DNA of 64,000 nt from Actinomycetospora chiangmaiensis DSM 45062 (GTDB lineage Bacteria; Actinomycetota; Actinomycetes; Mycobacteriales; Pseudonocardiaceae). The DNA is taken from the NCBI RefSeq assembly GCF_000379625.1, contig NZ_KB903217.1, positions 451,816-515,815 of the forward strand, given 5' to 3'. Made by a program: the position numbers and the translations under genes. The notes beneath the pieces are model-generated. The model was not told the DNA's origin and made no database searches. It worked only from the letters and a program-made list of their open reading frames with translations. Shown in pieces: positions 5,126-36,410 of the stretch (within the stretch, counting starts at the first letter, position 1; every line of letters begins with the position of its first letter).

Positions 5126-5134
5126 GGTGGGTAC

Positions 5135-5161
5135 ATGGGAGAGGAGGTGGTCCGACGTTGA
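5135..5161 (+). CDS. Micro-ORF 1 (MGEEVVRR), candidate leaderless leader peptide
   Basis: Eight codons starting about three bases after the predicted transcription start and ending TGA, which overlaps the ATG of the next micro-ORF (TGATG). GAGGAGG inside this ORF would also serve as the ribosome site for micro-ORF 2. Its promoter spacing and coupling make it look deliberate; translation is unproven. Confidence 0.35.
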   Translation: MGEEVVRR

Positions 5162-5196
5162 TGAACGACAGGACTCGTGAGGTGTCCGTCAGCTAG
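5161..5196 (+). CDS. Micro-ORF 2 (MNDRTREVSVS), candidate leader peptide
   Basis: Eleven codons, translationally coupled to micro-ORF 1 by TGATG. An internal GGAGG (5143-5147) lies about 13 bases before the ATG. Codons Glu-Val-Ser-Val overlap the 5' strand of the alternative stems at 5181-5190, so a translating ribosome would change RNA folding. The function is unknown. Confidence 0.35.
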   Translation: MNDRTREVSVS

Positions 5197-5368
5197 CCGA
5201 CGTCAGGTCGTGGATTGACCGGCTCCCCCTCCGCGAGGGCGGACACGTCAGCTGGTGAATTCCCGACGGACACCGGACCCCCGGAGCGCTCGGAGTTGTC
5301 CATCCGAGCCCCTCGAACGCCGTTCGAGGGAAGCATGCTCCGGGGGTTTTCCATGTGCGCTTCGCGCT

Positions 5369-15308: not shown

Positions 15309-16388
15309 TTGACGACGATCGCCGCCACGCCGTCCGCCACCTGGTCGCGCGGGCACCGCCTCCGGCTCTCCGGCATCGTCGCCGTCATCGCGCTGCTGCA
15401 CGTCACGGGCTGGTCGCTCTACCTCGTCCTGACGGCGGGTCCGCTCGGCGCGGGCGCCTTCGCCGGCGCCGGGGTCCTCGCCTACGTGCTGGGCATCCGG
15501 CACGCGTTCGACGCCGACCACATCGCCGCCATCGACGACACGACCCGCCTCATGGTGCAGCGGGGCCGCCGCCCGGTCGGGGTCGGCTTCTTCTTCGCGA
15601 TGGGCCACTCGTCGGTGGTCGTGGCGCTCTCGCTGGTCATCGCGCTCGCCGCCGGCGCGGCCACGGTCGCGCAGGTCGACGCCTTCCGCGAGGTCGGCGG
15701 CACGATCTCGACCGTCGTCGCGATGGTGTTCCTCGCGCTGGTCGCGGTACTCAACGCGATGGTGCTGCGCGGCATCGTGAAGCTCTGGACCGACCTGCGG
15801 GCCGGGCGGCTCGACGAGCCCGAGCTCGAACGCCAGCTGCTCAACCGCGGCCTGGTCAACCGCATCCTCGGCGGCCGCGCCCGCGCCTGGATCCGGCACT
15901 CGTGGCACATGTACCCGCTGGGCTTCCTGTTCGGGCTCGGCCTGGAGACCGCCTCCGAGGTCACCCTCCTGACGCTGTCCGCGACCACGGCGTCGAGCGC
16001 GGGCGTCAGCGGCGGGGCCTCGCTGCTGGCCGCCCTGACCCTGCCGCTGCTGTTCGCGGCCGGGATGAGCGCGTTCGACACCGCCGACGGCCTGCTCATG
16101 TCGGTCGCCTACTCGTGGTCGAACCGGAACCCCGCGCGGCGGCTCTTCTACAACATCGCGACGACGGCGGCGACGGTCTCGGTCGCCGGGTTCATCGCGA
16201 GCGTCTACCTCGCAGGTGTCCTCGCCGACGACCTCGGCGTCACCGCGCTCGGGGGCTACGCCGGGCTCGCGGACGACTTCGAGCTGCTCGGCTACGTGAT
16301 CGTCGGCTTCTTCGTGCTGGTCTGGGGCGGGGCGGCGCTGATCTGGCGGCTCGGGCGCTTCGAGGAGCGGCACTCCGCCGCGACCTGA
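15309..16388 (+). CDS. Nickel/cobalt transporter, NiCoT (HoxN/NixA/NhlF) family
   Basis: 359-residue inner-membrane permease with about eight helices. The signature RHAFDADHIAAIDDTTR in helix II and GFFFAMGHSSVVV match the HX4DH and related metal-selectivity motifs of NiCoT transporters; LGLETASEVTLL is the third conserved block. Start is TTG with AAGGAG nine bases upstream. In Rhodococcus rhodochrous J1 the homologue NhlF supplies cobalt to nitrile hydratase. Divergent position next to the amidase operon suggests the same here. Nickel for the hydrogenase or a nickel ureohydrolase could also enter this way. Confidence 0.93.
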   Translation: MTTIAATPSATWSRGHRLRLSGIVAVIALLHVTGWSLYLVLTAGPLGAGAFAGAGVLAYVLGIRHAFDADHIAAIDDTTRLMVQRGRRPVGVGFFFAMGHSSVVVALSLVIALAAGAATVAQVDAFREVGGTISTVVAMVFLALVAVLNAMVLRGIVKLWTDLRAGRLDEPELERQLLNRGLVNRILGGRARAWIRHSWHMYPLGFLFGLGLETASEVTLLTLSATTASSAGVSGGASLLAALTLPLLFAAGMSAFDTADGLLMSVAYSWSNRNPARRLFYNIATTAATVSVAGFIASVYLAGVLADDLGVTALGGYAGLADDFELLGYVIVGFFVLVWGGAALIWRLGRFEERHSAAT

Positions 16389-16389
16389 G

Positions 16390-17817
16390 TCAGGGTGCCT
16401 CCCCGACCACCCGCAGCCGTCCGCCCACCGCCTCGGCCACGTAGAGGGTCGGGGCCACGAGGTCGCGCGTGCCGATGACGTCGGCGGCGCCGGTCCGCCG
16501 CCGCATCAGGGCCCGGCCGTGGCTCGCGGCCCCGCCGGCCGCGTCCAGGTGCCGCACCCGGGCGTAGCGGTGGATCGACTCGTAGATCGTCTCGGACAGC
16601 GCGGTGATCGCCGGTGCCCACGCGCCGTAGGCCGACCGGTACCGCCGCACCAGGTCGTCGTTGCCGGCGAGCGGGCCGTCCTGGAAGTACGCGAGCGCCG
16701 TGCGCAGGCCCTGCCCGGCGCGCTCCCCGATGTGGGCGAGCGTGGACTCCTCGAGGACCAACGAGACGGTGCGCACCGTCTCGCGCAGCCCGGCGGCCTC
16801 GGACTGCCGCTCGAAGGCCACCTCGTCCGCCCCGATGAGACTGCTCAGCACCAGCTCGGACCCCGAGGCGGTGATCCGCTCGATCACGCGGGCGAAGTCG
16901 GCGGTGCCGAGCGGGGTGAGCGACTCCCCGACGACCCGTCCGCCGGCCCGGGCGATCACGTGCCGGGCGGCCGCGTGCACCCCGTGGGACCAGACGTAGT
17001 CCTCCCCGACGAGGAACCACCGGCGGGACCCCGTCGTCGCCATCGTCGGGCCGACGAGCGCCTCGAGCTGCGCGCGCGGCCGTTCCCCGAAGCGCACGGC
17101 GGTCGGCGACACACCGCCGCCCTCGTTCAGCACCGAGTGGACCACCAGCACGTCGCGGCCGGCGAGGGCGCGGCGGACGGCCTCGAAGCTCGCCGAGGTG
17201 CTGTTGACGAACACCGCGTGGCACCCCAGCCGGGCCATGCGGACGGCCTCGGCCGCGGCCTGCCGCGCGTCGGTGCCGTCGTCGGCGGTCACGAGCCGGA
17301 CGGGGCTCCCGGCGATCCCGCCGTCGGCGTTGATCTCCGCGACGGCGAGCTCGGCCATCAGCTCGGCCGAGAGCGAGTACACCGCCCCCGGTCCGGAGGC
17401 GTTGGTGATCGCCCCCAGCCGCAGCGACCCGTCGTCGGGGGGTTCCGGCAGCGGGATCCCGCGCCGGTGCAGCAGCCACTCCAGGCCCCCGGTCGGGACC
17501 TCGGCGCGCAGCCGGACCCGGGTGCGGCCGGCGCCGGCGGGCGCGAGCCGCAGGCCGATCCGTCCCCGCCACGGCTGGGTGTGCTCGATGTCGAGCGCCA
17601 CCCCGGGCACCACGCGGGCCAGCCGTCCGAGGACCTCGACGTCCTGGCGACCGTCCCGGTCGAGCGGGAGCCGCAGGCTCACCGGTGCGCCGACGTGCAC
17701 GTCGTCGCAGCGCGCCCCGAACAACCACCCCGCCGCCCGCCCGGCCCCGAACAGCGCGAACAGCGCCTCCGGGGCGAGCGCCACCGTCTGCTCGACGGCG
17801 ACGGTGGTCGTGTCCAT
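16390..17817 (-). CDS. SRPBCC domain fused to an AmiC-like amide sensor
   Basis: 475 residues in two parts. Residues 1-120 look like an SRPBCC/START-type ligand domain (AVEQTVALAPEALFALFGAG, GVALDIEHTQPWRGRIGLRL). Residues about 130-475 form a type I periplasmic-binding-protein fold of the AmiC/branched-chain amino-acid-binding class (LGAITNASGPGAVYS, AEINADGGIAGSPVRLVTAD). There is no signal peptide, so it works in the cytosol as a sensor and not in an ABC importer. AmiC-like proteins (NhhC, NhlC in R. rhodochrous J1) control nitrile hydratase genes. The extra SRPBCC domain is unusual. It lies 30 bases downstream of the ArsR gene, same strand. Confidence 0.82.
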   Translation of the reverse strand: MDTTTVAVEQTVALAPEALFALFGAGRAAGWLFGARCDDVHVGAPVSLRLPLDRDGRQDVEVLGRLARVVPGVALDIEHTQPWRGRIGLRLAPAGAGRTRVRLRAEVPTGGLEWLLHRRGIPLPEPPDDGSLRLGAITNASGPGAVYSLSAELMAELAVAEINADGGIAGSPVRLVTADDGTDARQAAAEAVRMARLGCHAVFVNSTSASFEAVRRALAGRDVLVVHSVLNEGGGVSPTAVRFGERPRAQLEALVGPTMATTGSRRWFLVGEDYVWSHGVHAAARHVIARAGGRVVGESLTPLGTADFARVIERITASGSELVLSSLIGADEVAFERQSEAAGLRETVRTVSLVLEESTLAHIGERAGQGLRTALAYFQDGPLAGNDDLVRRYRSAYGAWAPAITALSETIYESIHRYARVRHLDAAGGAASHGRALMRRRTGAADVIGTRDLVAPTLYVAEAVGGRLRVVGEAP

Positions 17818-17847
17818 CGGGCCCCCTCCACGGTGTGACGTGGGAGC

Positions 17848-18186
17848 TCAGCCGGTCTCCTGCACGCCCCCGGACGACTCGCCGGCGGCCGCGGCGGCGT
17901 CGGTGATGCCCTGGCGCAGGATGGACTGCAGGAACACGAAAGCATCGCGGACGGCGCCGTCGGTGTCGAGGGAGTAGAAGCGGTTGCGGCCGTCCCGGCG
18001 CTCGCGCACGAGGCCCGAGGTCCGCAGGACGCGCAGGTGGCTCGACACCGTGGTCCGCCCGACGGCGTCGATCCGGCCGGCGATCTCGCCGACGCTCAGC
18101 TCCCCGTGCTCCCCGAGGGCGGCGAGGATGCGGCGACGCACGCGGTCGGAGAGAGCGTCGAACGCGAGCGTCTCGTTCTGCTCCAC
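17848..18186 (-). CDS. ArsR/SmtB-type winged-helix regulator of the nitrile hydratase cluster
   Basis: 112 residues. ALSDRVRRRILAALGEHGELSVGEIAGRI followed by VGRTTVSSHLRVLRTSGLVRERRDGRNRFYSL is a complete ArsR winged helix. No metal-site cysteines are visible, so the signal is probably not a metal directly. It is first in a unit with the AmiC-like sensor. In the J1 low-molecular-mass nitrile hydratase cluster, the regulator NhlD is reported as ArsR-like and works with AmiC-like NhlC. Start GTG. The TCCACATGTGG site 31 bases upstream may be its own operator. Confidence 0.88.
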   Translation of the reverse strand: MEQNETLAFDALSDRVRRRILAALGEHGELSVGEIAGRIDAVGRTTVSSHLRVLRTSGLVRERRDGRNRFYSLDTDGAVRDAFVFLQSILRQGITDAAAAAGESSGGVQETG

Positions 18187-18216
18187 GCGGGTGAAGCTAC
18201 CACGTGTCGATGGATG

Positions 18217-18227
18217 TCCACATGTGG
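18217..18227. promoter_or_regulatory. Candidate ArsR-type operator (TCCACATGTGG), regulator copy
   Basis: CCACATGTGG is a perfect 10-bp palindrome, preceded by T as in the copy at 15195. It lies between the ArsR gene and the guanidine-III riboswitch, fitting autoregulation. Confidence 0.45.
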
Positions 18228-18307
18228 GCACCAGGCGTGTCGGCGGGTCGCCCGTGACGGACCCGGGCGGAGGGGACACCGTGCTAATTTCCCCACGAGG
18301 CCGCCTC

Positions 18308-18358
18308 GGTCTCCGCCGACGAGGGTGGCCGTACCGGACCCTGCAAAGACGGCCACGG
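18308..18358 (+). ncRNA. Guanidine-III riboswitch (ykkC-III)
   Basis: The segment GCCGACGAGGGTGGCCGTAC, then CGG, then ACCCTGCAAAGACGGCCAC matches the guanidine-III consensus (CGACGAGG, GCCGTACC-GG, GCAAAGACGGC) as I remember it. GTGGCCGT (18325-18332) pairs perfectly with ACGGCCAC (18349-18356), and TCCG (18312-18315) can form the pseudoknot with CGGA (18335-18338). The 3' strand ends four bases before the AGGTGA ribosome site of the ureohydrolase, so guanidine binding probably controls translation initiation. Confidence 0.85.
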
Positions 18359-18369
18359 TGAGGTGACCG

Positions 18370-19533
18370 ATGTCCGAGCAGGGCCACTCCCACAGCGACG
18401 CCTTCGCGCAGCAGGAAGGCAAGTGGGCCCAGGAGGCGGAGGCGGCGATCTCGCTGTTCCGCCACGACGAGGAGATCGAGCGCGGGCTGGCCTTCGGCCT
18501 CTCCGGCTCGCCGACCCTCGTCGACCGCACGATCCCGACGTTCTCGCGCGGGGAGCTGCCGCACTTCGCGGGCGAGCGGGGCACGTTCCTCAACGCCCCC
18601 TACCTCGAGGACGTCAACCAGGTCGACGACGCCGAGGTGGCGATCTTCGGGGCGCCGGTGGACGCCGGCACCACCTACCGGCCGGGCACCCGCTTCGGCC
18701 CGCAGGGGATCCGGCGCTCGACCAACCTCTTCGGCACCTACTGCTACGAGCTGGGCGTCGACCTGCGCGAGCAGCTGAACATGGTCGACATCGGGGACGT
18801 CTTCACCATCCCGGGCAACCTGGAGAAGTCGTTCGACCAGATCAGCCAGGCCATCTCCCACGTGTACTCCCGCGGGGTGTTCCCGGTGGTCCTCGGCGGC
18901 GACCACTCCATCGGCTACCCGACGATCCGCGGGATCGCGCCGCACGTCGACGGCAACATCGGCATCATCCACTTCGACCGCCACGTCGACACGCAGGAGA
19001 CCGACCTCGACGAGCGGATGCACACCACGCCGTGGTTCCACGCGACCAACATCGCGAACGCCCCGGCGACCAACCTGGTGCAGATCGGCATCGGCGGGTG
19101 GCAGTCGCCGCGGGCCGGGGTCAAGGTCGGCCGGGAGCGCGGCACGTCGATCATGACGATCGGTGACGTCGAGCGGGTGGGCGTGGAGAAGATCGCCGAG
19201 ACCGCGCTCGAGCTGGCGTGGAAGGGCGCGAAGGCCGTCTACCTGTCGTTCGACATCGACGTCCTCGACGCCGGGTTCGTGCCCGGCACGGGGTGGCCCG
19301 AGCCGGGCGGCCTGCTGCCGCGGGAGGCGCTCAACCTGATCCGCCTCATCTCCGCCGCCGGCCTGTCCGGGCTGGAGATCGTGGAGTGTTCCCCGCCCTA
19401 CGACTGGGCCGAGCAGACCGCGCTCATGAGCTCCCGGATCGTGCTCGACTCCCTGGGCGTGCTCGTCCGGGAGGGACACCTCGGGAAGAAGGCCGCCGCG
19501 CGCGACCGGCACGCCTGGGGTCCGCAGGCCTGA
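18370..19533 (+). CDS. Ureohydrolase of the agmatinase family, predicted guanidine hydrolase
   Basis: 387 residues with a long N-terminal arm (about 85 residues) ahead of the arginase/agmatinase fold. Binuclear metal ligands: His179 (GGDHS), Asp203, His205, Asp207 (DRHVDT), Asp295 and Asp297 (SFDID). DRHVD replaces the usual DAHxD. VPGTGWPEPGG is the substrate loop. Annotated by similarity it would be called agmatinase. The guanidine-III riboswitch directly upstream and the long arm resemble the nickel-dependent guanidine hydrolase GdmH, which yields urea and ammonia. The product would be further nitrogen supply beside the nitrile/amide genes. Convergent with the predicted guanidine permease. 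Confidence 0.88.
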   Translation: MSEQGHSHSDAFAQQEGKWAQEAEAAISLFRHDEEIERGLAFGLSGSPTLVDRTIPTFSRGELPHFAGERGTFLNAPYLEDVNQVDDAEVAIFGAPVDAGTTYRPGTRFGPQGIRRSTNLFGTYCYELGVDLREQLNMVDIGDVFTIPGNLEKSFDQISQAISHVYSRGVFPVVLGGDHSIGYPTIRGIAPHVDGNIGIIHFDRHVDTQETDLDERMHTTPWFHATNIANAPATNLVQIGIGGWQSPRAGVKVGRERGTSIMTIGDVERVGVEKIAETALELAWKGAKAVYLSFDIDVLDAGFVPGTGWPEPGGLLPREALNLIRLISAAGLSGLEIVECSPPYDWAEQTALMSSRIVLDSLGVLVREGHLGKKAAARDRHAWGPQA

Positions 19534-19540
19534 GCCCCGC

Positions 19541-19571
19541 GGTCTCCTCCCGGGACGTCCGGGAGGAGACC
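19541..19571. terminator. Bidirectional terminator between ureohydrolase and permease
   Basis: GGTCTCCTCCCGG and CCGGGAGGAGACC form a perfect 13-bp stem with loop GACGT, exactly between two convergent stops (8 and 11 bases from each). Confidence 0.7.
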
Positions 19572-19581
19572 CGGGCACGGG

Positions 19582-21090
19582 TCAGGCCCGGCGCGACTCC
19601 TGGCGGCGCACCACGCGGTAGGCGGCGAGACCGAGCGCGAGGATCACGACGACCGCGATCACGGCCGAGTACTGCAGCACCCAGCCGCCGGACCCGTCGG
19701 GGTCGTAGACCGCTGCCCGCGGCCACCCGACGTTCACCAGCAGGAAGATCCCGAAGACGACGGCCACGACGTTGACCGGGATGCCCCAGCGGCCGAGGGA
19801 GAAGGTGCCGGGCTCGGGGTCGTGCCGGCCCGTGCGGCGCAGGCGGTGGTAGAGCCGGGGCACGGTGACGAACAGGTACGCCAGGTAGACGATCACCACC
19901 GAGATGCTCGTGACCGAGGCGAACACGCTCGACTGCCCGAGGTTGATCAGCAGCACGCCGATCGAGAGCACGCCGATCACGATGCTCGGCAGCACGGGCG
20001 TCTTCGTGCGCGGCGAGACCTTCGCGAGTGCCGCGGAGAACGGCAGCTGCCCGTCGCGGGCCATCGAGAACATCACCCGGGCCGCCGAGGTCGAGATGGC
20101 CAGCGCCGCGGAGAGGATGGACGCGGCGACGACGGCCAGGACGATCCGCCCGAACACGTCGCCCAGCTCGCTGGTCACGACCCAGGCGATGCCCTGCGAG
20201 GCCAGGTCGGGCGAGGCGATGTCGGGGGCGGCCATGAGCGTCGCGAGGATGAGCAACAGCCCGCCGACGCCGGAGATCACCATGCAGCGGACGATCGCGC
20301 GCGGGGTGGTCCGGCGCGGGTCGCCGGTCTCCTCGGAGAGCTCGGCGGCCGAGTCGAAGCCGTACATCACGTACGCCGCCATGAGCATGGAGGCGAGGAA
20401 CGGCCACACGTACGAGCCGTCGCCCTGGACGCCGTTGGTCTCGAACACGACCTGCGGTCCGCGCTGGGCGTGGGCGAACAGGGCGACGACCACGAGCAGC
20501 ACCCCGAGGATCTCGAGGGTCACCCCGACACGGGTGACGATCGCGACCCGGGTGACGCCGAGCAGCTGGACCGCCACGCAGACCACGATGCAGATCGTGC
20601 CCAGCACGATGGCGTTGAGGGCCCCGGTGCTCGACGTGGGCGACGGGTCACCGCCGACGATCTGGAAGCCGTCCCACACCTCCGGGAGCACCGCCTGCAA
20701 CGCGATCGCGATGGCGGCGACGGAGACGATGTAGCCGAGCTGCATCAGCCAGCCGGCCATCCACCCCCACGGGTCGGACGCGACGCGCCGGGACCACTGG
20801 TAGATCGCCCCGGCGATCGGGTAGCGCGCCGCGAGCTCGGCGAAGACCAGGCAGACGCAGAACTGCCCGAGGAAGACGATCGGCCAGGTCCAGATGTAGG
20901 CGGGTCCGCCGAAGCCGAAGCCGATGATGAAGAGCTGGAAGACCGTCGTCAGGATCGAGACGAAGGAGAAGCCCGACGCGAAGGACGCGAACGGGGTCAG
21001 CCCGCGGTGCAGTTCCTGGCGGTAGCCGAGTTCGCCCAGGTGGGCGGAGTCGTCGGGGGCCTGGGTGGGACGCTCGGCGGTGGCGCTCAT
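19582..21090 (-). CDS. APC-family permease under guanidine-I riboswitch control, predicted guanidine importer
   Basis: 502 residues, twelve predicted membrane helices. The first helix starts at about residue 30 with FASFASGFSFVSILTTVFQLF, then GGPAYIWTWPIVFLGQ and FAELAARYPIAGAIYQW, typical of the amino acid-polyamine-organocation superfamily. YGFDSAAELSEETGDPRRTTPRAI is the conserved loop. The ATG at 21090 was chosen; an in-frame GTG at 21099 is possible. The ykkC aptamer in its leader indicates a guanidinium or related cation substrate. Such permeases are known in guanidine-I regulons. Confidence 0.88.
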   Translation of the reverse strand: MSATAERPTQAPDDSAHLGELGYRQELHRGLTPFASFASGFSFVSILTTVFQLFIIGFGFGGPAYIWTWPIVFLGQFCVCLVFAELAARYPIAGAIYQWSRRVASDPWGWMAGWLMQLGYIVSVAAIAIALQAVLPEVWDGFQIVGGDPSPTSSTGALNAIVLGTICIVVCVAVQLLGVTRVAIVTRVGVTLEILGVLLVVVALFAHAQRGPQVVFETNGVQGDGSYVWPFLASMLMAAYVMYGFDSAAELSEETGDPRRTTPRAIVRCMVISGVGGLLLILATLMAAPDIASPDLASQGIAWVVTSELGDVFGRIVLAVVAASILSAALAISTSAARVMFSMARDGQLPFSAALAKVSPRTKTPVLPSIVIGVLSIGVLLINLGQSSVFASVTSISVVIVYLAYLFVTVPRLYHRLRRTGRHDPEPGTFSLGRWGIPVNVVAVVFGIFLLVNVGWPRAAVYDPDGSGGWVLQYSAVIAVVVILALGLAAYRVVRRQESRRA

Positions 21091-21160
21091 CGCGGGCACC
21101 CCGGGCGGGACGGGACGTGGCGGCGGGACACGGGGAGACCTCCGGCGGGGCTCGGACGGA

Positions 21161-21258
21161 TCTCCCGGGCTTTTGTCCCGCCGTGGAACGGGCCGTGGGC
21201 CCGCCTGGCCTCTCGGTCGCTGACCCGGCGCACGCCGGCGGAACCCTAGGCTCGCCCC
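21161..21258 (-). ncRNA. Guanidine-I riboswitch (ykkC) upstream of the permease
   Basis: Read leftward, the highly conserved ykkC blocks occur in order: CTAGGGTTCCG, then GGGTCAGCGACCGAGAG, then ACGGCGGGACAAAAGCCCGG followed by GAGA. These are the near-invariant parts of the guanidine-I aptamer. The aptamer ends about 70 bases before the permease start; I see no clear U-tract terminator, so the expression platform is uncertain. Confidence 0.92.
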
Positions 21259-21343
21259 ACCTCTCGCTGGTGAGTCGGGAGCGAGTACACGAGGCGTCCG
21301 TGTCCGGCGTGCGCCGCGGAGGTTCCGGGGAGGTTTCCCCGTG

Positions 21344-22174
21344 TTACGGCTTGCGGCCGACGGCGCCCGCCAGGCACTTCTGCGCGGGCAGCAGGTCGCG
21401 CAGCCGCGGACCGTCCGGCCACCAGTCGACCAGCAGGGAGAAGCCCGGGTCCACCAGCTCGAGGCCGGGCAGCATCCCGAGGATCTCGTCCTTCGTCCGG
21501 AACACGCCGCTGCCGAGCGGGCTGTGCACGAAGATGTTCTCCATGCGCCGCGCGAGCTCGGAGTTCTCGTCCTGCGGGTCGTAGAAGTGCGAGAGCGCCA
21601 CGTAGGAGCCCGACGGCAGGGCGTCGACGTAGGTCGCCATGATGTCGGCGGGCGGGCGCTCGCCGACGTAGTGGTGCAGCGTGCCGAGCTGGAGCAGGGC
21701 GAGCGGCTCGTCGAAGTCGATGAGCTCGCGGACGATCGGGTCGGCGAGCACCTCCTCCGGCTTCGTCAGGTCGGCCGGGGAGAAGCGGGTGAGCTCGTTC
21801 TCCTCGAGCAGGGCCCGGCCGTGCGCGACGACCGAGGGGTCGTTGTCGACGTAGACCACGCGGGTCTCGGGCGCGATCCGCTGGGCGGCCTGGTGGGTGT
21901 TCTCGGCGGTCGGCAGCCCGGACCCGAGGTCGAGGAACTGCCGGATGCCGGTCTGCTGCGCGATGAACCGCGTGACCCGGATGAGGAACTGCCGGTGGTC
22001 GACGGTGAACTGCTCGATCTCGGGCGCGACGGTCTTGAGCTTCTCGACGACCTCGCGGTCGACCTCGAAGTTGTCCTTGCCGCCGAGCGCGCAGTCGTAG
22101 ACCCGCGCGATGCTCGCCCGGGTCCGGTCGATCGTCGCCGCGGCTCTCGGAGAGGCCGTTCGCTCGATGCTCAT
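21344..22174 (-). CDS. SAM-dependent methyltransferase, PF04672 (DUF574) family
   Basis: 276 residues. The N-terminus SIARVYDCALGGKDNFEVDRE is the hallmark of this actinobacterial family. SAM-binding motif FLDLGSGLPTAENTH, then VYVDNDPSVVAHGRALL. No specific substrate is known; relatives occur near secondary metabolite and morphological genes. ATG start. It lies 86 bases downstream of the ykkC leader but on the opposite side of it, so it is not part of the guanidine unit. Confidence 0.9.
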   Translation of the reverse strand: MSIERTASPRAAATIDRTRASIARVYDCALGGKDNFEVDREVVEKLKTVAPEIEQFTVDHRQFLIRVTRFIAQQTGIRQFLDLGSGLPTAENTHQAAQRIAPETRVVYVDNDPSVVAHGRALLEENELTRFSPADLTKPEEVLADPIVRELIDFDEPLALLQLGTLHHYVGERPPADIMATYVDALPSGSYVALSHFYDPQDENSELARRMENIFVHSPLGSGVFRTKDEILGMLPGLELVDPGFSLLVDWWPDGPRLRDLLPAQKCLAGAVGRKP

Positions 22175-28933: not shown

Positions 28934-29308
28934 CGTGACGAGGAAGGCGAGGGCGACGACGACGGCGGCGGCCGGGCCCCGCAGGCCCCGCCGGCCCTGT
29001 CTCGTGCCGGACTCGGACGTCGTGCTGATGATGGACCTCCGTCGGGGTCGGTCGACGGAGAGTTGTTCCCGCTACCGATCGGGCCTACGCGCCGGCCGCG
29101 GTCTCCTGCTCGCGCACGGTGTCGACGATGGACAGCAGCACGGCCGTGCTCGCGCCCGCGTCGGGTCCCGGCGGCCGCCGGCTCGTCGTGACCCGGTGCC
29201 ACCTACGTGTCGACGCCACTTACCACCCCCTGACCTCGGTGCCAGCCTCTGAACCTCCGCTGGTACCACCACTCGACGGTCCGGCCGTTGATCCTGCTGG
29301 GGGAACTC
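28934..29308. other. Intergenic region between MFS gene and hydrogenase operon
   Basis: Holds, from left, the probable uncanonical 5' part of the MFS gene (to about 29032), the remnant of the small VREQETAA gene (29085-29146), and about 160 bases of hydrogenase upstream region. No clear sigma-70 promoter was found for hhyS. Confidence 0.5.
29085..29146 (-). pseudogene. Remnant of the small gene encoding the VREQETAA tail (left copy)
   Basis: Leftward frame encoding ASTAVLLSIVDTVREQETAA then GA and TAG. 49 of 50 bases (29094-29143) are identical to 44075-44124, where the complete small gene ends the same way. Upstream of 29144 the similarity stops and no start codon with ribosome site fits, so this is a truncated copy. 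Confidence 0.6.
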
Positions 29309-30361
29309 GTGACCACTGCTGCTCCCGAGGACACGACCGTCCACATCCTCTGGATGAACGCCGGCCTGTCCTGCGACGGTGACTCGGTCGCCCTCACGGC
29401 GGCCACCCAGCCCTCCATCGAGGAAATCGCGCTCGGTGCCCTCCCCGGGCTGCCGACGGTCGCGGTGCACTGGCCCCTCATCGACTTCGAGTCCGGCCCC
29501 GACAAGGGCGCGGACACCTTCATCGAGTGGTTCTTCAAGGCCGAGCGCGGCGAGCTCGACGGCCCCTTCGTGCTCGTCGTCGAGGGCTCGGTGCCGAACG
29601 AGGCCATCAAGAAGGAGGGCTACTGGTCCGGGTTCGGCAACGATCCGGCCACCGGCCAGCCCCGGACCACCAGCGAGTGGATCGACCGCCTCGCGCCCAA
29701 GGCGGCCATCGTGCTCGCCGTCGGGACCTGCGCGACCTACGGCGGCATCCACGCCATGGCGGGCAACCCCACCGGCGCGATGGGCGTCGCGGACTACCTC
29801 GGCTGGGACTGGCGCTCGACGCTCGGCATCCCGATCGTCAACGTCCCGGGCTGCCCGGTGCACCCGGACAACCTCTCCGAGACGATCCTCTACCTGCTCT
29901 ACCAGGCCGTCGGCGCCGCGCCGATGATCCCGCTCGACGAGGGCCTGCGGCCCACCTGGCTCTTCGGCGCGACCGTCCACGAGGGCTGCGACCGCGGCGG
30001 CTACTACGAGCAGGGTCAGTTCGCGACGGAGTACGGCCGACCCGAGTGCATCGTCAAGCTCGGCTGCTGGGGCCCGGTCGTGAAGTGCAACGTGCCCAAG
30101 CGCGGCTGGATCAACGGCATCGGCGGCTGCCCGAACGTCGGCGGGATCTGCATCGGCTGCACCATGCCCGGCTTCCCCGACAAGTTCATGCCGTTCATGG
30201 ACCCGCCGCCCGGCAGCCGGATCTCCGGGGCCGCGAGCGGCGCCTACGGCGGGGTCATCCGCACGCTGCGCAACATCACGAAGAAGACCGTCGACGCCGA
30301 ACCGCGGTGGCGCCACCGGGGCACGACGCTCGACACCGGCCACCACCCCGTCGCGTTCTGA
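29309..30361 (+). CDS. hhyS: [NiFe] hydrogenase small subunit, group 1h type
   Basis: 350 residues. It carries the iron-sulfur clusters passing electrons from the NiFe site. Cys ligands are visible in LSCDGDS, GTCATYGG, NVPGCPVHPDN, HEGCDRGGYY, KLGCWGPVVKCN and CPNVGGICIGCTMPGFPD. There is no twin-arginine signal peptide, as expected for the cytoplasm-facing actinobacterial high-affinity group (1h, formerly group 5). GTG start with GGGGGAA upstream; the in-frame ATG-like start seven codons earlier is less likely. First gene of a long rightward operon. Confidence 0.93.
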   Translation: MTTAAPEDTTVHILWMNAGLSCDGDSVALTAATQPSIEEIALGALPGLPTVAVHWPLIDFESGPDKGADTFIEWFFKAERGELDGPFVLVVEGSVPNEAIKKEGYWSGFGNDPATGQPRTTSEWIDRLAPKAAIVLAVGTCATYGGIHAMAGNPTGAMGVADYLGWDWRSTLGIPIVNVPGCPVHPDNLSETILYLLYQAVGAAPMIPLDEGLRPTWLFGATVHEGCDRGGYYEQGQFATEYGRPECIVKLGCWGPVVKCNVPKRGWINGIGGCPNVGGICIGCTMPGFPDKFMPFMDPPPGSRISGAASGAYGGVIRTLRNITKKTVDAEPRWRHRGTTLDTGHHPVAF

Positions 30362-30374
30362 GAGGTCGAGCCCG

Positions 30375-32177
30375 ATGACCGCCACCGCACCGAAGCACTC
30401 GACGGACCTGAGGACCGACCTCGTCGAGATGGCCTGGGACCCGATCACCCGCATCGTCGGGAGCCTCGGGATCTACACGAAGATCGACTTCGGGGCGAAG
30501 CGCGTGGCCGAATGCCACTCGACGTCGTCGATCTTCCGTGGCTACTCCATCTTCATGAAGGGCAAGGACCCGCGGGACGCGCACTTCATCACCAGCAGGA
30601 TCTGCGGCATCTGCGGGGACAACCACGCGACCTGCTCGGTCTACAACCAGAACATGGCCTACGGGGTCCGACCGCCGCACCTGGGTGAGTGGATCATCAA
30701 TCTCGGCGAGGCCGCCGAGTACATGTTCGACCACAACCTCTACCAGGAGAACCTGGTCGGGGTGGACTTCTGCGAGAAGATGATCTCGGAGACGAACCCC
30801 GGGGTGCTGGAGCTCGCGAACCACACCGAGGCGCGGCACGCGGCCGAGCACGGCCACCGCACCGTCGGCGACATCATGCGGGCGCTCAACCCGTTCACCG
30901 GCGAGTTCTACCGCGAGGCCCTGCAGGTCTCCCGCTACACGCGCGAGATGTTCTGCCTGATGGAGGGCCGCCACGTCCACCCCTCGACGCTCTACCCGGG
31001 CGGCGTCGGCACCACGGCCACCATCCAGCTCTTCACCGACTACCTCTCCCGGCTGATGCGCTACGTGGAGTTCATGAAGCGGGTCGTGCCGATGCACGAC
31101 GACCTCTTCGACTTCATGTACGAGGCGCTGCCCGGCTACGAGGAGGTCGGCCGCCGGCGCGTGCTGCTCGGCTGCTGGGGCTCGCTCAACGACCCGGAGC
31201 ACTGCGACTTCGACTACCGCACGATGACGAACTGGGGACGGAAGATGTTCGTCACCCCCGGCGTCGTCGTCGACGGGAAGCTCGTCACCACCGACCTCGT
31301 CGAGATCAACCTCGGCATCCGCATCCTGCTCGGCAGCTCCTTCTACCGGGGCTGGGAGGACCAGGAGCGCTTCGTCCAGCGCGACCCGCTCGGCAACCCG
31401 GTGTCGGCGGACCACCCCTGGAACCAGCACACGATCCCGGCGCCGCAGAAGCGCGACTTCGACGACAAGTACTCCTGGACGATGTCGCCGCGCTGGTTCG
31501 ACGGGACCGAACACCTGCCGCTGGACACCGGCGGCGGTCCCATCGCGCGCCTCTGGGCGACGGCGCTCGCCGGCCTCGTCGACACCGGGAACGTCCGGTC
31601 CACCGGCCACAGCGTCGAGATCCACCTGCCGCGGACGGCCCTCAGGCCGGAGCGGAGTTTCACGTGGACCCCGCCGGTCGACAGGAGCGGGGCGCCGCTG
31701 TCCAACGCGATCGAGCGCGACCGCGCCCGCACCTACTTCCAGGCCTACGCGGCGGCGATCGCGCTGCACTTCGTCGAGAAGGCGATGGCCGAGGTGCGCG
31801 GCGGCAACACCAGGACCTGGGAGAGCTTCGTCGTCCCCGACGAGTCCGTGAGCTGCGGGTTCACCGAGGCCGTGCGCGGGGTGCTCTCCCACCACATGGT
31901 GGTGCGTGGCGGGAGGATCGCGAACTACCACCCGTACCCGCCGACACCGTGGAACGGCAGCGTCCGCGACCGGTACGGCACGCCCGGTCCCTACGAGGAC
32001 GCGGTGCAGAACACCCCGATCTTCGAGGAGAACACCCCGGAGAACTTCAAGGGCATCGACATCATGCGGGCCGTCCGCAGCTTCGACCCGTGCCTGCCCT
32101 GCGGCGTACACATGTACCTGGGGAACGGCAGGGCGCTGCACCGGGAGACCTCGCCGACGCAGCTGAACCTCCCGTGA
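30375..32177 (+). CDS. hhyL: [NiFe] hydrogenase large subunit, group 1h type
   Basis: 600 residues. The NiFe(CN)2CO centre is bound by RICGICGDNH (Cys77, Cys80) and FDPCLPCGVHMY (Cys573, Cys576). A 21-residue tail follows His579, to be cut off by the maturation protease encoded in this operon. RIVGSLGIYTKIDF is the usual N-terminal strand. It oxidises H2, in this group even at atmospheric concentration. Starts 13 bases after hhyS; the stop overlaps the next ATG (TGATG). Confidence 0.95.
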   Translation: MTATAPKHSTDLRTDLVEMAWDPITRIVGSLGIYTKIDFGAKRVAECHSTSSIFRGYSIFMKGKDPRDAHFITSRICGICGDNHATCSVYNQNMAYGVRPPHLGEWIINLGEAAEYMFDHNLYQENLVGVDFCEKMISETNPGVLELANHTEARHAAEHGHRTVGDIMRALNPFTGEFYREALQVSRYTREMFCLMEGRHVHPSTLYPGGVGTTATIQLFTDYLSRLMRYVEFMKRVVPMHDDLFDFMYEALPGYEEVGRRRVLLGCWGSLNDPEHCDFDYRTMTNWGRKMFVTPGVVVDGKLVTTDLVEINLGIRILLGSSFYRGWEDQERFVQRDPLGNPVSADHPWNQHTIPAPQKRDFDDKYSWTMSPRWFDGTEHLPLDTGGGPIARLWATALAGLVDTGNVRSTGHSVEIHLPRTALRPERSFTWTPPVDRSGAPLSNAIERDRARTYFQAYAAAIALHFVEKAMAEVRGGNTRTWESFVVPDESVSCGFTEAVRGVLSHHMVVRGGRIANYHPYPPTPWNGSVRDRYGTPGPYEDAVQNTPIFEENTPENFKGIDIMRAVRSFDPCLPCGVHMYLGNGRALHRETSPTQLNLP

Positions 32178-32725
32178 TGGCGGGCCACGGAACCCCCGGG
32201 GCCCCCGACGCCGCCCAGCTCGCGCGGGCCATCGAGGAGATCCTCGGCGAGCTCGCCGCCGCCGGGGAGGAACCTGCTCGGGCGGGGGAGGAGCTCATCC
32301 GCGTCCTGCTCGCCTTCTACGGCGCCGGGCTGGAGCAGCTGGTCTCGGTGGTGCGGGTCGCGGGCGGCGAGGACCTGCTGTACCGGCTCGGTGCCGACCC
32401 CTTGGTGGCGGCGCTGCTCGCGCTGCACGACCTGCACCCCGTCGACCTCCCGACGCGGGTCGGGCACGCCCTGGACACCGCACGCAGACGGCTCGGGAGC
32501 CACGGATCCGGGGTCGCGCTGGACCACCTCGAGCTGGACACCGGGACGGCGCACGTACGCCTCGGGAGCGGCTGCGGGGGCGGGGAGACGGTGCGCGACG
32601 TCGTCCGGCGGGCGCTGGGCGAGCTCGCGCCGGAGGTCGGCGACGTCGTGTTCCTCACCGAGCCCGCGAGCCCGGCCCTGGTCCAGATCGGGATGCGGCC
32701 GCCCGAGCTCGCGGCGGGGTCGTGA
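32177..32725 (+). CDS. NifU-like domain protein of the hydrogenase operon
   Basis: 182 residues. The C-terminal half has a NifU-like scaffold pattern (LDTGTAHVRLGSGCGGGETVRDVVRRAL); the usual CxxC is replaced by a single Cys followed by glycines. The N-terminal half is helical (LARAIEEILGELAAAGEE). Proteins like this are regularly found after group 1h large subunits and may help with iron-sulfur assembly or electron transfer. Coupled to hhyL by TGATG and to the next gene by GTGA. Confidence 0.75.
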   Translation: MAGHGTPGAPDAAQLARAIEEILGELAAAGEEPARAGEELIRVLLAFYGAGLEQLVSVVRVAGGEDLLYRLGADPLVAALLALHDLHPVDLPTRVGHALDTARRRLGSHGSGVALDHLELDTGTAHVRLGSGCGGGETVRDVVRRALGELAPEVGDVVFLTEPASPALVQIGMRPPELAAGS

Positions 32726-33423
32726 GCGCGGGGGGCGTCGCCGGGCTCCGGCGGTTCCTGGTCGCCCGCCCGGCGCCGGTCGTGGTGGAGCGGTGCGACC
32801 TGTGCGCGGCGGAGCTCCCCGGGGAGCACGGCCACCTGGTCCGCCCCGGCGAGCGCGCCCTGCGCTGCGCGTGCCGGCCGTGCAGCCTGCTCTTCGACGC
32901 CGAGCGCGTGGGGACCGACGGGGCCTTCGTCACCGGCTACCGGACCGTGCCCGACCGCTACCGCCGCGACCCCGCCTTCACGCTGACCGACGCCGCCTGG
33001 GACGCCCTGCAGATTCCGGTCTCGACGGCGTTCTTCCTGCTCGACTCCACCCGCGACGGCGTCCTCGCCTGCTACCCGAGCCCGGCGGGCGCCACCGAGA
33101 GCGAGCTGGGAATGGACTCGTTCGACGACGGCGTCGGCGCGACCCGGCTCGCCACCCTGCTCCGCCCCGACGTCGAGGCCCTGCTCGTGCGGCGCCCACG
33201 CGACGGCGGGACGGGCATCGATGGTCCAGCTGCGCTCCGCTGCGTGTCCGAATGCTTCCTCGTCCCGATCGACGCCTGCTACCGCCTCGTCGGGCTCGTG
33301 CGCACCACGTGGAAGGGGTTCGACGGCGGGGCGGCGGCGTGGGCGGCGATCGACGGGTTCTTCGCCGACGTCCGGGCGCGGGCGCGCGACCTGCGCCCCG
33401 ACGAGGGGGTGCCGACCCGATGA
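32722..33423 (+). CDS. DUF5947-type hydrogenase-operon protein
   Basis: 233 residues. RCDLCAAEL and CACRPCSLLFD supply four to five cysteines that could bind zinc or a cluster; the rest (ALQIPVSTAFFLLDST, VECFLVPIDACYRLVGLVRTTWKGFDGG) is characteristic of a family known from actinobacterial group 1h loci. Biochemical role unknown. GTG start overlaps the preceding stop (GTGA), and its stop overlaps the next ATG (ATGA). Confidence 0.75.
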   Translation: MSAGGVAGLRRFLVARPAPVVVERCDLCAAELPGEHGHLVRPGERALRCACRPCSLLFDAERVGTDGAFVTGYRTVPDRYRRDPAFTLTDAAWDALQIPVSTAFFLLDSTRDGVLACYPSPAGATESELGMDSFDDGVGATRLATLLRPDVEALLVRRPRDGGTGIDGPAALRCVSECFLVPIDACYRLVGLVRTTWKGFDGGAAAWAAIDGFFADVRARARDLRPDEGVPTR

Positions 33424-34088
33424 CGCTGCCGTTCCCGCGCTCGGCGCCGGGACCCGCGCTGCACTTCGCGGTGGAGTCCGCCGACCACGACCCGCACGCG
33501 ATGGGCCCGACGCTGCGGCTGCACGTCCGCATCGGCGACGCGACCGGGACGACGGTGCACGCGATCGCGCTGCGCACCCAGATCCGGATCGAACCCCGGC
33601 GCCGGCGCTACGACGAGGCCGAGCAGCACCGGCTCGTGGAGCTCTTCGGAGAGCCCGGCGACTGGTCCCGCTCCTGCCGGCCGATGCAGCTCGCGACCGT
33701 CGCCACCATGATCGGGACGTTCGCCGGAGCCACCACCGCCGTGGTCGAGGTGCCGCTGACCGCCGACGTCGAGGTCGCCTCGACCCGCTACTTCCGCGGC
33801 CTCGACGACGGCGAGGTCCCGCTGCTGCTGCTCTTCAGCGGGACGGTGTTCTACCGCTCCGCGCGGGAGGTCCAGGTCGGCCTCGTCCCCTGGCACGAGG
33901 AGGCCACGTTCCGGCTCCCGGTCGCGCTGTGGCGGGAGGCCATGGCCGCCCACCACGCCGGCACCGGGTGGGTCGCGCTGCCCGAGCACACGCTGGCGCG
34001 GCTCACCGCGTGGCGCGCCGAGCAGGCGCTGCCGAGCTGGGAGCAGACGATCGACGAGCTGCTGCGGCGCGCCGGGGGCACGTCGTGA
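33420..34088 (+). CDS. DUF6084-type hydrogenase-operon protein
   Basis: 222 residues. LHFAVESADHDPHAMGPTLRL, IALRTQIRIEPRRRRYDEAEQ and GEPGDWSRSCRPMQLATV are conserved-looking blocks of a beta-rich protein found with DUF5947 in group 1h clusters. No catalytic motif. It probably acts in assembly or as a structural partner of the hydrogenase. Overlapping start and stop codons on both sides show tight coupling. Confidence 0.72.
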   Translation: MTLPFPRSAPGPALHFAVESADHDPHAMGPTLRLHVRIGDATGTTVHAIALRTQIRIEPRRRRYDEAEQHRLVELFGEPGDWSRSCRPMQLATVATMIGTFAGATTAVVEVPLTADVEVASTRYFRGLDDGEVPLLLLFSGTVFYRSAREVQVGLVPWHEEATFRLPVALWREAMAAHHAGTGWVALPEHTLARLTAWRAEQALPSWEQTIDELLRRAGGTS

Positions 34089-35416
34089 GCGCGCCCGACC
34101 TCGACGACGTCGCCGGGATCGCCGACGCCGTCCTCTTCGAGGGCTACCTGCTCTACCCGTACCGGGCCTCGGCCCGGAAGAACGCGCTGCGCTGGCAGTT
34201 CGGGGTGCTCCTCCCGGCCGGGGCGGGAGCCGGCGAGCCGTCGGCCAGCCGCACCGAGTGCCTCGTCGAACCCCGTCCGGGCGCGCGGCTCTCGCTGCGG
34301 CTGCGGTTCCTGCACCGGCAGCGCCGCACCGTGCTCGACCCCGCCGGCGTCCCGTGCGAGCGGCTCGACGTCGACGGCGCGCCCCACTTCGGCTGGGACG
34401 AGGGCGTGCCCCGCCAGGTCGACGCCGAGATCGGGTTCGACGAGCTGGCCGGCGGACCGGTCACCGTCGCCGTCGCGGTCCCGGCGGCGCGGTCGGGGAC
34501 GCCGATCCACGACGGCGCGGGAACGGTGCGGGGCGCCTACGTGCGCGAGACCGACCCGCTCGTCGGCCGCGTCGTCGTCGGGGTCGACGCGCCCCCGGGC
34601 CCGTACGGGGCGATGCGGCTGCGCCTCGACGTCGTGAACGACGCGTGGGTCGCCGGCGACGGCGGACGCGAGCGGGCGCTGGACCGCGCGTTCATCGCCG
34701 CCCACACCGTGCTCGCCCTCGACCGCGGCACCTTCGTCTCGTCGACGGACCCACCGGAGTGGGCCGCCCCCGCCGTCGCGGCCTGCGTCAACGAGCACAG
34801 CTGGCCGGTGCTCGCGGGCCCGCCGGGGTGCACCTCGCTGCTGCTCGCGACCCCGATCATCCTCGCCGACCACCCCCAGCTCGCCCGGGAGAGCCCGACC
34901 GACCTCTTCGACGGCACCGAGAACGACGAGATCCTCACCCTGCGCACGGCCGCCCTCACCGACGCCGAGAAGCGCGAGGCGCGCGCCACCGACCCCCGCG
35001 CCGCCGACCTGCTCGACGCGATCGAGGCGATGGGCCCGGCGATGGTCGAGCGCCTGCACGGCGTGATCCGGCGCGACGGCCGCGCGCCGGACGACATCCC
35101 GACCCTGGCCGTCCCGGACGCGCCGTGGTGGGACCCCGGCGCCGATGCGTCGGTCGACCCGGCGTCGGACGCGGTGCTCGTCGGCGACGTCGAGGTGCGC
35201 GCGGGCAGCACGGTCGTCCTGTGGCCCCGCGCCGGCGGCGACGCCCAGGACCTGTTCCTGCGCGGGCGCCGCGGCACCGTGCAGGCCGTCCTGCACGACG
35301 TCGACGGCCTGGTGCACGTCGCGGTGTCGCTCGACGACGACCCGACCGACCTGCAGACCGCGCACGGCCGGTTCCGCTACTTCGCGCCCGACGAGCTGGC
35401 GGTGGCGCCGTCATGA
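34085..35416 (+). CDS. Conserved hydrogenase-operon protein of unknown function
   Basis: 443 residues. FEGYLLYPYRASARKNALRWQ is a distinctive N-terminal motif, followed by LRLRLDVVNDAWV, FVSSTDPPEWAAPAVAACVNE, SWPVLAGPP and LLLATPIILADHPQLARESP in the centre. A C-terminal SH3-like piece follows (GTVQAVLHDVDGLVHVAVSLDDD). I know similar genes only from actinobacterial high-affinity hydrogenase operons and cannot assign a reaction. GTG start overlaps the previous stop; the stop overlaps the protease ATG. Confidence 0.72.
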   Translation: MSAPDLDDVAGIADAVLFEGYLLYPYRASARKNALRWQFGVLLPAGAGAGEPSASRTECLVEPRPGARLSLRLRFLHRQRRTVLDPAGVPCERLDVDGAPHFGWDEGVPRQVDAEIGFDELAGGPVTVAVAVPAARSGTPIHDGAGTVRGAYVRETDPLVGRVVVGVDAPPGPYGAMRLRLDVVNDAWVAGDGGRERALDRAFIAAHTVLALDRGTFVSSTDPPEWAAPAVAACVNEHSWPVLAGPPGCTSLLLATPIILADHPQLARESPTDLFDGTENDEILTLRTAALTDAEKREARATDPRAADLLDAIEAMGPAMVERLHGVIRRDGRAPDDIPTLAVPDAPWWDPGADASVDPASDAVLVGDVEVRAGSTVVLWPRAGGDAQDLFLRGRRGTVQAVLHDVDGLVHVAVSLDDDPTDLQTAHGRFRYFAPDELAVAPS

Positions 35417-35949
35417 GGATCCTGGTGGCGGGGGTCGGCAACGTGCTGTGCTCCGACGACGGCTTCGGTCCCGAGGTCGCCGCGCGCCTGCTCGCCCGGC
35501 CCGCCGAGGTGCCCGCGGGCGTGGAGGTGGTCGACGTCGGCATCCGCGGCCTGCACCTGGCCTACCGCCTGCTCGACGGCTACGACGTGCTGCTGATCGT
35601 CGACGTGACCCGCCGCGGCGCGTCCCCGGGCGAGCTGTGCCTGCTCGAGCACGATCTCGCCGCACCGGCCGAGGCCGATCTCGATCCCCACGGCATGTCG
35701 CCCGACGCGGTCCTCGCGCTGCTCGACGGGCTCGCCCGGGACACCGCGGCGGGAGCGGGCGCCCGCGACGTCGTCGGGCGGGTACTGGTGCTCGGCTGCG
35801 AGCCGGCGGTCCTCGACCCCGGGATGGGTCTGAGCCCACCGGTGCACGCGGCCGTCGACGAGGCGGTCGCGGCGGTCGGCCGGGTGCTCGCGCGCCTGCT
35901 CGCCGGACAGGACTTCGAAGCCACGCGGAAGGAAGGGGTCGCACGATGA
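35413..35949 (+). CDS. Hydrogenase maturation protease
   Basis: 178 residues, HyaD/HupD/HycI family endopeptidase. VAGVGNVLCSDDGFGPEVA contains the nickel-sensing Asp of GN-x-D-G-x-G, and VEVVDVGIRGLHLAYRLLDGYDVLLIVD the second Asp region. It clips the C-terminal tail of HhyL after nickel insertion. ATGA overlaps on both sides. Confidence 0.92.
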   Translation: MRILVAGVGNVLCSDDGFGPEVAARLLARPAEVPAGVEVVDVGIRGLHLAYRLLDGYDVLLIVDVTRRGASPGELCLLEHDLAAPAEADLDPHGMSPDAVLALLDGLARDTAAGAGARDVVGRVLVLGCEPAVLDPGMGLSPPVHAAVDEAVAAVGRVLARLLAGQDFEATRKEGVAR

Positions 35950-36047
35950 TCAAACTGCTGGGGCTGGCGGCGCTGGTCGGGGTCGGCTGGGTCGCCTACG
36001 ACTCGCGCGGCGACATCCGCCGCTACCTGCGCATCCGGGCGATGTAG
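35946..36047 (+). CDS. 33-residue membrane protein (DUF6893-like) in the hydrogenase operon
   Basis: MIKLLGLAALVGVGWVAYDS then RGDIRRYLRIRAM: one hydrophobic helix and a basic C-terminal tail. The ATG overlaps the protease stop (ATGATCA), and hypA starts three bases after the TAG, so it is in frame with the operon logic. Similar very small proteins are recurrent in actinobacteria. It could anchor or adapt the hydrogenase to the membrane; that is inference. Confidence 0.7.
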   Translation: MIKLLGLAALVGVGWVAYDSRGDIRRYLRIRAM

Positions 36048-36050
36048 GCC

Positions 36051-36410
36051 GTGCACGAGTTCGGCGTCGCCGCGGCGGTGCTCGACGCCGTCGAGGCGCG
36101 CGCCGCCGGCCGGGACGTGCGCGCCGTGCGCCTGCACGTCGGGGCGCTGCAGCGCCTCGACCGCGACGTCTTCGACGCCGCCTTCGCGATGGTCGCCGAC
36201 GGCGGGGTCGCCGCGGGGGCGGCCCTGGACGTCGTCGAGGTCGCCGTCCGCGTGCGCTGCCGCGGGTGCGCCGCCACGACCACGGGCGACGAGCTCGTCG
36301 TCGCCTGCGGGACCTGCGGCGCCCACGACCTCGACCTCCTCGCCGGGGACGACCTCGTCCTGGAGTCGATCACCCTGACCGACACCCGCACCGAACAGGA
36401 GGTGGGCTAG
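36051..36410 (+). CDS. hypA: Hydrogenase nickel-insertion protein HypA
   Basis: 119 residues. The start MHEFGVAAAVLDAVE is the family's nickel-binding N-terminus; CRGC and CGTC form the zinc site near residues 68-90. HypA delivers nickel to the large subunit, normally with the GTPase HypB. No hypB is found in this window. GTG start three bases after the 33-residue gene; the stop abuts hypC. Confidence 0.92.
   Translation: MHEFGVAAAVLDAVEARAAGRDVRAVRLHVGALQRLDRDVFDAAFAMVADGGVAAGAALDVVEVAVRVRCRGCAATTTGDELVVACGTCGAHDLDLLAGDDLVLESITLTDTRTEQEVG

Follow-up and report, generated by a model that had tools for sequence, protein, structure and literature searches.

Actinomycetospora chiangmaiensis DSM 45062 very probably carries a guanidine-assimilation module under the control of two riboswitch classes. 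The module lies in a stretch of 64,000 nucleotides (contig NZ_KB903217.1, positions 451,816 to 515,815, assembly GCF_000379625.1), hereafter the window, in which an arginase-family gene (gdmH) preceded by a guanidine-III aptamer faces a permease gene preceded by a guanidine-I aptamer. We favour this reading because both aptamers are present and are the best matches of their families in the whole genome, the enzyme has the residues of GdmH-type guanidine hydrolases, the genome holds a urease gene and the window a HypA-family gene, the pairing recurs in other loci, and the permease leader can form a candidate expression platform. The features are, in window coordinates:

18294-18358, plus strand: guanidine-III riboswitch aptamer (ykkC-III), a diverged member (RF01763, 34.1 bits)
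18370-19533, plus strand: gdmH-type gene, probable nickel-dependent guanidine hydrolase of the arginase family (agmatinase by family name; from phmmer and residues)
19541-19571, no strand: 13-bp intergenic hairpin, possible bidirectional terminator without a T run (from folding)
19582-21090, minus strand: APC-family permease, putative guanidine importer (PF13520; ATG at 21090, in-frame GTG at 21099)
21087-21131, minus strand: 14-codon reading frame from the conserved Shine-Dalgarno-GTG start, its TGA overlapping the permease ATG
21132-21167, minus strand: possible expression platform, in which the aptamer tail GGGAGA pairs with UCUCCC between the Shine-Dalgarno sequence GGAGG (21139-21143) and the GTG
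21160-21260, minus strand: guanidine-I riboswitch aptamer (ykkC subtype 1; RF00442, 62.1 bits)

How would such a module work? Intracellular guanidine would bind the guanidine-I aptamer in the permease leader and thereby free a ribosome-binding site otherwise held in a hairpin by the 3' tail of the aptamer, so that more importer is made. Guanidine would also bind the guanidine-III aptamer in the gdmH leader, exposing the ribosome-binding site and protecting the mRNA by the published mechanism of that class, in which guanidine stabilises a pseudoknot (PMC12186494, PMC5696562). GdmH would then split guanidine into urea and ammonium, and the genome's urease would complete the breakdown of urea.

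Two aptamers, a probable guanidine hydrolase and a permease

A default Rfam scan of the window lists neither aptamer because both score one to two bits under the gathering scores of their families. After this result the stretch was rescanned by E-value, and a covariance scan of positions 17800-21600 with all Rfam families gave full-model matches to both: RF00442 at 21160-21260 on the minus strand (62.1 bits, E 7.4e-10, model positions 1-107 of 107), one bit below the gathering score of 63, and RF01763 at 18294-18358 on the plus strand (34.1 bits, E 1.3e-4, model positions 1-67 of 67), about 2 bits below the gathering score of 36. The third match of the scan, a microRNA family on the intergenic hairpin, is chance (E 3.7). 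Across the 5.86 Mb genome each aptamer is the top match of its family (guanidine-I, E 2.7e-10; guanidine-III, E 4.6e-5), and the guanidine-I element shares all 37 columns that are invariant over 25 aligned rows, itself among the 25. A preliminary description of the locus had placed guanidine-III before an agmatinase-like gene and guanidine-I before the opposing permease, and had proposed a search with the two Rfam models. The scan agrees with this placement and its coordinates, both matches being significant although under the gathering scores; two unrelated aptamer classes each head one half of a likely import-and-hydrolysis pair.

The open reading frame behind the guanidine-III aptamer encodes an arginase-family protein of 387 amino acids. 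Its nearest solved relatives by phmmer are 9fek (E 3.9e-159) and 7esr/7oi1 (E 3e-148), which are named guanidinases (PMC11410670) and score more than 300 bits above guanidinobutyrase and agmatinases. It is identical to the 9fek chain, the Nitrospira guanidinase, at 227 of 359 aligned positions, and to Synechocystis GdmH (sll1077) at 213 of 354. Ten residues of the Nitrospira enzyme have been named, six metal ligands and T105, H222, W313 and E344, of which Thr 105, His 222 and Trp 313 are required for a guanidinase call (PMC11410670). The window protein keeps all ten (T, H, D, H, D, H, D, D, W, E), with T102, H218 and W309 as counterparts of the three required residues and H179, D203, H205, D207, D295 and D297 as metal ligands; the chain numbering runs two ahead of the published one, the offset being set by matching residues. 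Family and residues point to a probable GdmH-type, nickel-dependent guanidine hydrolase. A second arginase-family gene (G000:C28), 36% identical to the window protein, was set aside.

All ten residues are likewise kept in 86 of 90 GdmH-like rows (locus L033 and its duplicate L153 both included), the exceptions being H to N in L080 and W to S in L158, L161 and L165. In the latter three loci, from Actinomycetospora, the GdmH-like gene stands behind a permease-like gene and is convergent with an SMR gene under guanidine-III; this enzyme is possibly a hydrolase for another guanidino compound.

The genome has a urease alpha gene, and none of its 25 matches to TIGR02712 (urea/guanidine carboxylase) exceeds the cut-off, which fits a route from guanidine to urea to ammonium. 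Most of these matches span only the first ~440 model positions and read as biotin-carboxylase-like. Three adjacent ones on contig C13 together cover positions 2-1075 in separate frames, and we provisionally took them for other biotin-dependent genes. A guanidine carboxylase route was rejected for want of a match over the cut-off, although a split relative may lie on C13.

The permease matches PF13520 (E 1.6e-52). Its family, its guanidine-I leader and its guanidinase neighbour make it a putative guanidine importer, by analogy with Nitrospira, whose predicted guanidine importer is an APC permease that is controlled by guanidine-I and lies next to a guanidinase (PMC11410670, PMC12186494); the likeness is one of family and context. 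The preliminary description had moved both genes from agmatinase and amino-acid permease to guanidine use. For the enzyme this stands, given 9fek, the residues and an agmatinase model (TIGR01230) that reaches 170.2 bits and misses its equivalog cut-off of 174.3 by four; for the permease it is suggested by context.

In transporter leaders, the conserved GGGAG tail of the guanidine-I aptamer can pair with a pyrimidine stretch directly behind the Shine-Dalgarno sequence, closing the latter. The isolated tail-to-start segment of the window folds at -20.2 kcal/mol with all 5 Shine-Dalgarno bases paired (energy z -1.9 against linker shuffles). The pairing could be scored in 27 of the 31 guanidine-I leaders linked to a transporter (L077 has no Shine-Dalgarno word; the script found no start in L090, L092 and L155), and at least 3 Shine-Dalgarno and at least 4 tail bases were paired in 27/27. 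Linker shuffles (n=5400) paired both in 27%, the Shine-Dalgarno bases alone in 62% and the tail alone in 32%. When guanidine-I heads gdmH, the Shine-Dalgarno sequence was paired in 3/7 scorable leaders and the tail in 6/7. No T run follows the guanidine-I aptamer in the window. Because of this absence and the pairing in transporter leaders, the modelled permease leader points to translational control rather than to terminator control, the usual mode of the class (PMC12186494). In the window the conserved Shine-Dalgarno-GTG opens the 14-codon frame, but the same GTG of L153 and L154 starts the permease itself. The odd start of the window permease may reflect a leader peptide and coupled reinitiation, or else one differing base.

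A bidirectional terminator had also been proposed between the two genes. The gap indeed holds a perfect 13-bp hairpin (19541-19571; 19536-19576 folds with z -5.3 on either strand), but the hairpin has no T run, and a consensus scan of 17800-21800 for promoters and intrinsic terminators returned none. Close relatives have strong hairpins of different sequence in the same gap (L153, z -4.1; L154, an 18-bp stem, z -7.5), and by folding a bidirectional terminator is plausible.

Recurrence of two-class loci

Is the arrangement singular? We built our own models from 42 guanidine-III and 25 guanidine-I rows and searched 100 loci. The GdmH sample was the best 80 of 584 confirmed relatives, skewed to mycobacteria and not unbiased. 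These 80 loci included guanidine-III on gdmH only (27), guanidine-III on gdmH with guanidine-I on an SSS transporter (21) or on an APC permease (2; L033 and L099), guanidine-I on an SSS gene only (2) or an APC gene only (2), guanidine-III on an SMR gene (1) and guanidine-I on another gene (1). With three further fetched loci (L154, L155, L156), 26 two-class loci exist besides the window (23/80 and 3), and guanidine-III heads gdmH and guanidine-I the transporter in 26/26. Counting the window, 24 of 27 are divergent, with 116-158 nt between the aptamers; the window, L033 and L154, all from Actinomycetospora, are convergent. The transporter is of the SSS family in 22 of the 24 divergent loci (PF00474 was confirmed on the two SSS proteins checked, L066 and L156). 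APC and SSS are unrelated families, and because APC stands in some loci and SSS in others, two unrelated transporters lie under the same switch class. The two-class guanidine module is recurrent in actinobacteria and its convergent layout is rare. The earlier view that the arrangement is unusual has to be scaled down: the same class-to-gene pairing occurs in 26 further loci, 24 of them divergent, and each half was already published.

Four of these loci (L033, L154, L155, L156) were among the training rows of our models, so that their matches are built in; the remaining 22 played no part in training. L153, a duplicate of L033, was counted once in locus counts. At E <=0.5 there were 77 guanidine-III matches, of which 68 were counted and nine weak ones (E 0.063 to 0.49) dropped as chance. 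The weak matches of L074 (21.5 bits, E 0.042), L082 (E 0.085) and L097 (E 7.7e-4) were retained, and L074 was counted as two-class on this basis. Among 44 guanidine-I matches one was dropped (L095, E 0.47). A dropped guanidine-III match (L087:3198-3275, plus strand, E 0.46) lies just 5' of gdmH, opposite a guanidine-I/SSS leader, and is possibly a decayed copy; counting it would add L087 to the two-class loci. Rfam's own models at gathering level find both classes in 9 of the 11 two-class loci tried and miss L033 and L154. Both classes fall within 10 kb in 5/200 relatives (G000, G001 and G003 convergent; G120 and G151 divergent), a figure from lists compared by eye under stricter filters, with the weakest guanidine-III matches unlisted.

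A rapid GdmH tree of 90 rows, with SH-aLRT as its only support and with 26 of its 86 inner branches open, groups the window clade, in a starred set of 11, with three Mycolicibacterium-type rows and with Quadrisphaera, Cellulomonas, Streptomyces and Asanoa; the large mycobacterial group with divergent loci stands elsewhere. On this tree the element upstream of gdmH changes at least 8 times and the two-class state at least 6 times, which fits repeated assembly or loss and not one frozen locus.

Some neighbouring elements deserve mention. In three Nonomuraea loci (L056, L068, L089) no guanidine aptamer was detected between the genes of a divergent gdmH/SSS pair, and control seems lost or replaced. 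L155 has a SAM riboswitch (L155:1754-1928, plus strand) 3 kb from its divergent guanidine-I/guanidine-III pair. The gene of the HypA family (nickel chaperones) in the window lies at 36051-36410 (over the Pfam cut-off) and is followed by HypC (36411-36686), in a [NiFe]-hydrogenase-like cluster (29288-36686, plus strand) whose small subunit (29288-30358) and large subunit (30375-32174) match under the NCBIfam cut-offs. A NicO-type nickel/cobalt transporter gene (15309-16388, plus strand) was excluded from the module: it is near gdmH only in L033/L153 and L154, with none in the fetched flanks of other GdmH loci, and it occurs once beside a guanidine-III SMR gene without gdmH (L159). It adjoins a PRK07235 amidase gene, and in the translation of the neighbouring long open reading frame we read a nitrile-hydratase-like sequence. 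The actinobacterial small RNA Ms_IGR-5 lies at 5133-5354 (plus strand, 80.2 bits).

Counter-evidence and rival explanations

Several points weigh against a guanidine module under two-class control: (i) the guanidine-III copy of the three convergent species is weak and diverged: three rows and no others (window, L153, L154) have a non-standard pseudoknot pair 32-57, pair 34-55 is gapped in them too, and CAAAGA replaces the usual ACAAGA; (ii) for the permease platform, 62% of shuffles already pair the Shine-Dalgarno sequence alone, the energies lie just modestly below those of the shuffles (z -0.1 to -3.9), the folding took the tail-to-start segment without the rest of the aptamer and used mononucleotide shuffles, and the loci are kin, so that 27/27 platforms are not 27 independent cases; (iii) gdmH itself stands under guanidine-I in 8 of the 80 GdmH loci, as it does in L170-L172, and no guanidine switch was detected in 16/80; (iv) the neighbours of gdmH are an ArsR-type regulator and the permease, with no nickel chaperone; and (v) ligand binding, the ON direction of the switches, import by the permease and growth on guanidine are predictions from the sequence.

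Could the guanidine-III element have decayed in these Actinomycetospora, leaving only the permease under guanidine control? Its 34.1 bits, under the gathering score of 36, compare with 37.5 to 68.8 bits for the above-cut-off matches in 87/200 relatives, and the pseudoknot helix (P1), with its non-standard pair, is reduced, one strand being a base short relative to the other rows. With the gap moved, three G-C pairs of P1 remain by reading of the alignment. The ACGA core, invariant in 42/42 rows, is intact in the window (as ACGAG), as is by reading the complementary 8-bp P2 (GUGGCCGU/ACGGCCAC). The aptamer ends 11 nt from the gdmH start codon, close as in other members, with GAGG between aptamer and ATG. 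Moreover, the three species differ at two positions of the 65-nt element but have drifted in the stretch 5' of it, and the element therefore looks constrained. Across the family, pseudoknot and P2 covary (28 cells changed on both sides vs 6.8 in shuffles, with no correction for kinship). For the guanidine-III leader, single-strand folding, which draws no pseudoknots, gave no usable off-state model. We consider decay unlikely.

Alternatively, the permease may carry urea, an amide or an amino acid, or work outward, with guanidine-I answering stress. Among named models it scores best with TIGR03428 ('permease, urea carboxylase system'), at 610.9 bits and so below the cut-off of 740.45, and guanidine switches are frequent on exporters (PMC12186494). 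Indeed, among 14 guanidine-III loci fetched from other Actinomycetospora genomes, the element heads an SMR exporter gene in 12 (L157-L168) and gdmH in 2 (L153, L154). In most Actinomycetospora, guanidine-III would thus go with export, and in the group of the window with hydrolysis; this compares related genomes by count and does not amount to a test. A close SMR protein (>=59% identity) is encoded in 14/18 Actinomycetospora genomes; G000, G001, G003 and G010 have matches of at most 31-36%. The first three of these genomes carry the convergent module, so that the three convergent species are without a close SMR exporter; NBRC 106378 (L033) has a GdmH 99% identical to the window protein. In G010 guanidine-I heads gdmH, followed by an APC permease (L172), and G005 and G013 combine a close SMR with guanidine-I on gdmH, followed by an SSS gene (L170, L171). 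The pairing of transporter and hydrolase across 27 loci, in 22 with the unrelated SSS family, and the predicted Nitrospira importer of the same family beside a guanidinase argue for guanidine import, and we regard another role of the permease as improbable, to the same degree as decay of the guanidine-III element.

That enzyme and switch serve another guanidino compound, such as methylguanidine or agmatine, is less likely still. Guanidine-III crystals accept methylguanidine, aminoguanidine, ethylguanidine and agmatine (PMC5696562), and the matching family models are named agmatinase; yet the enzyme has the specificity Thr and Trp and the required His, and guanidino metabolites are reportedly not ligands of the guanidine-I riboswitch (PMC11410670). 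Finally, a ykkC subtype 2 RNA (for ppGpp or PRPP) on the minus strand is hardly credible: it would have the same fold, but the window has A in CCGAGAG, at a column that we read in the alignment as A46 and in which subtypes 2a/2b have a pyrimidine (PMC6031431), and the gene context is that of guanidine. Over the 25 guanidine-I rows this column is A in 23, G in one and C in one, the last from locus L133 (G123), whose ykkC RNA is possibly a subtype 2 aptamer.

Known systems and the use of two classes

Each half of the guanidine-assimilation module is already known, as are two classes (I and II) in one locus. A 2010 paper reported ykkC-III in the leaders of both speB and emrE, and also ykkC together with speB (PMC2864571); the available text of that paper does not describe both classes in one locus, as found in the window. 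Nitrospira inopinata resembles the window in its APC-family permease, enzyme type and guanidine-I control (PMC11410670), but there a single guanidine-I leader heads permease and guanidinase in line, whereas in the window the genes face each other behind separate leaders of two classes. Raoultella terrigena, Erwinia rhapontici and Klebsiella michiganensis have guanidine-I and guanidine-II in one import-and-degradation locus (PMC12186494); this type of locus differs by its classes (I and II rather than I and III), a carboxylase instead of a hydrolase pathway, an ABC importer and genes in line. The Synechocystis gdmH (sll1077) operon shares the GdmH family enzyme, but has guanidine-I, an ABC importer and nickel-delivery genes (PMC12186494), unlike the window. 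Mycolicibacterium and relatives put the same class on the same function as the window, but in divergent genes. Among nitrifiers, ykkC-III occurs in two comammox genomes without guanidine genes nearby (PMC11410670). Guanidine-I and guanidine-III paired on importer and hydrolase were not found in the literature searched, which was available in part and did not include key subscription papers, and we do not claim their absence from print.

Why do several riboswitch classes exist for one ligand? The loci bear on this open question since they set two classes on two functions of one pathway. It is conceivable, if rather doubtful, that actinobacterial loci with both classes reserve guanidine-I for the importer and guanidine-III for the hydrolase because differing platforms or affinities time the response (import first or enzyme first), importer family and layout being exchanged meanwhile. 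The single-class loci with guanidine-I on gdmH speak against such non-interchangeable classes. If the classes are not interchangeable, the SSS proteins would be a new family of guanidine importers and the loci a natural experiment on the persistence of several classes for one ligand. As the assignment is identical in 27/27 two-class loci, dose-response and timing of the two classes could be compared in one cell.

The loci also suggest that, in actinobacteria, a set of genes labelled 'agmatinase', 'amino-acid permease' or sodium:solute symporter be renamed as guanidine genes. In Actinomycetospora they contrast the shedding of guanidine with its use: behind guanidine-III stands an SMR exporter gene in 12 of the fetched loci and the hydrolase in three loci.

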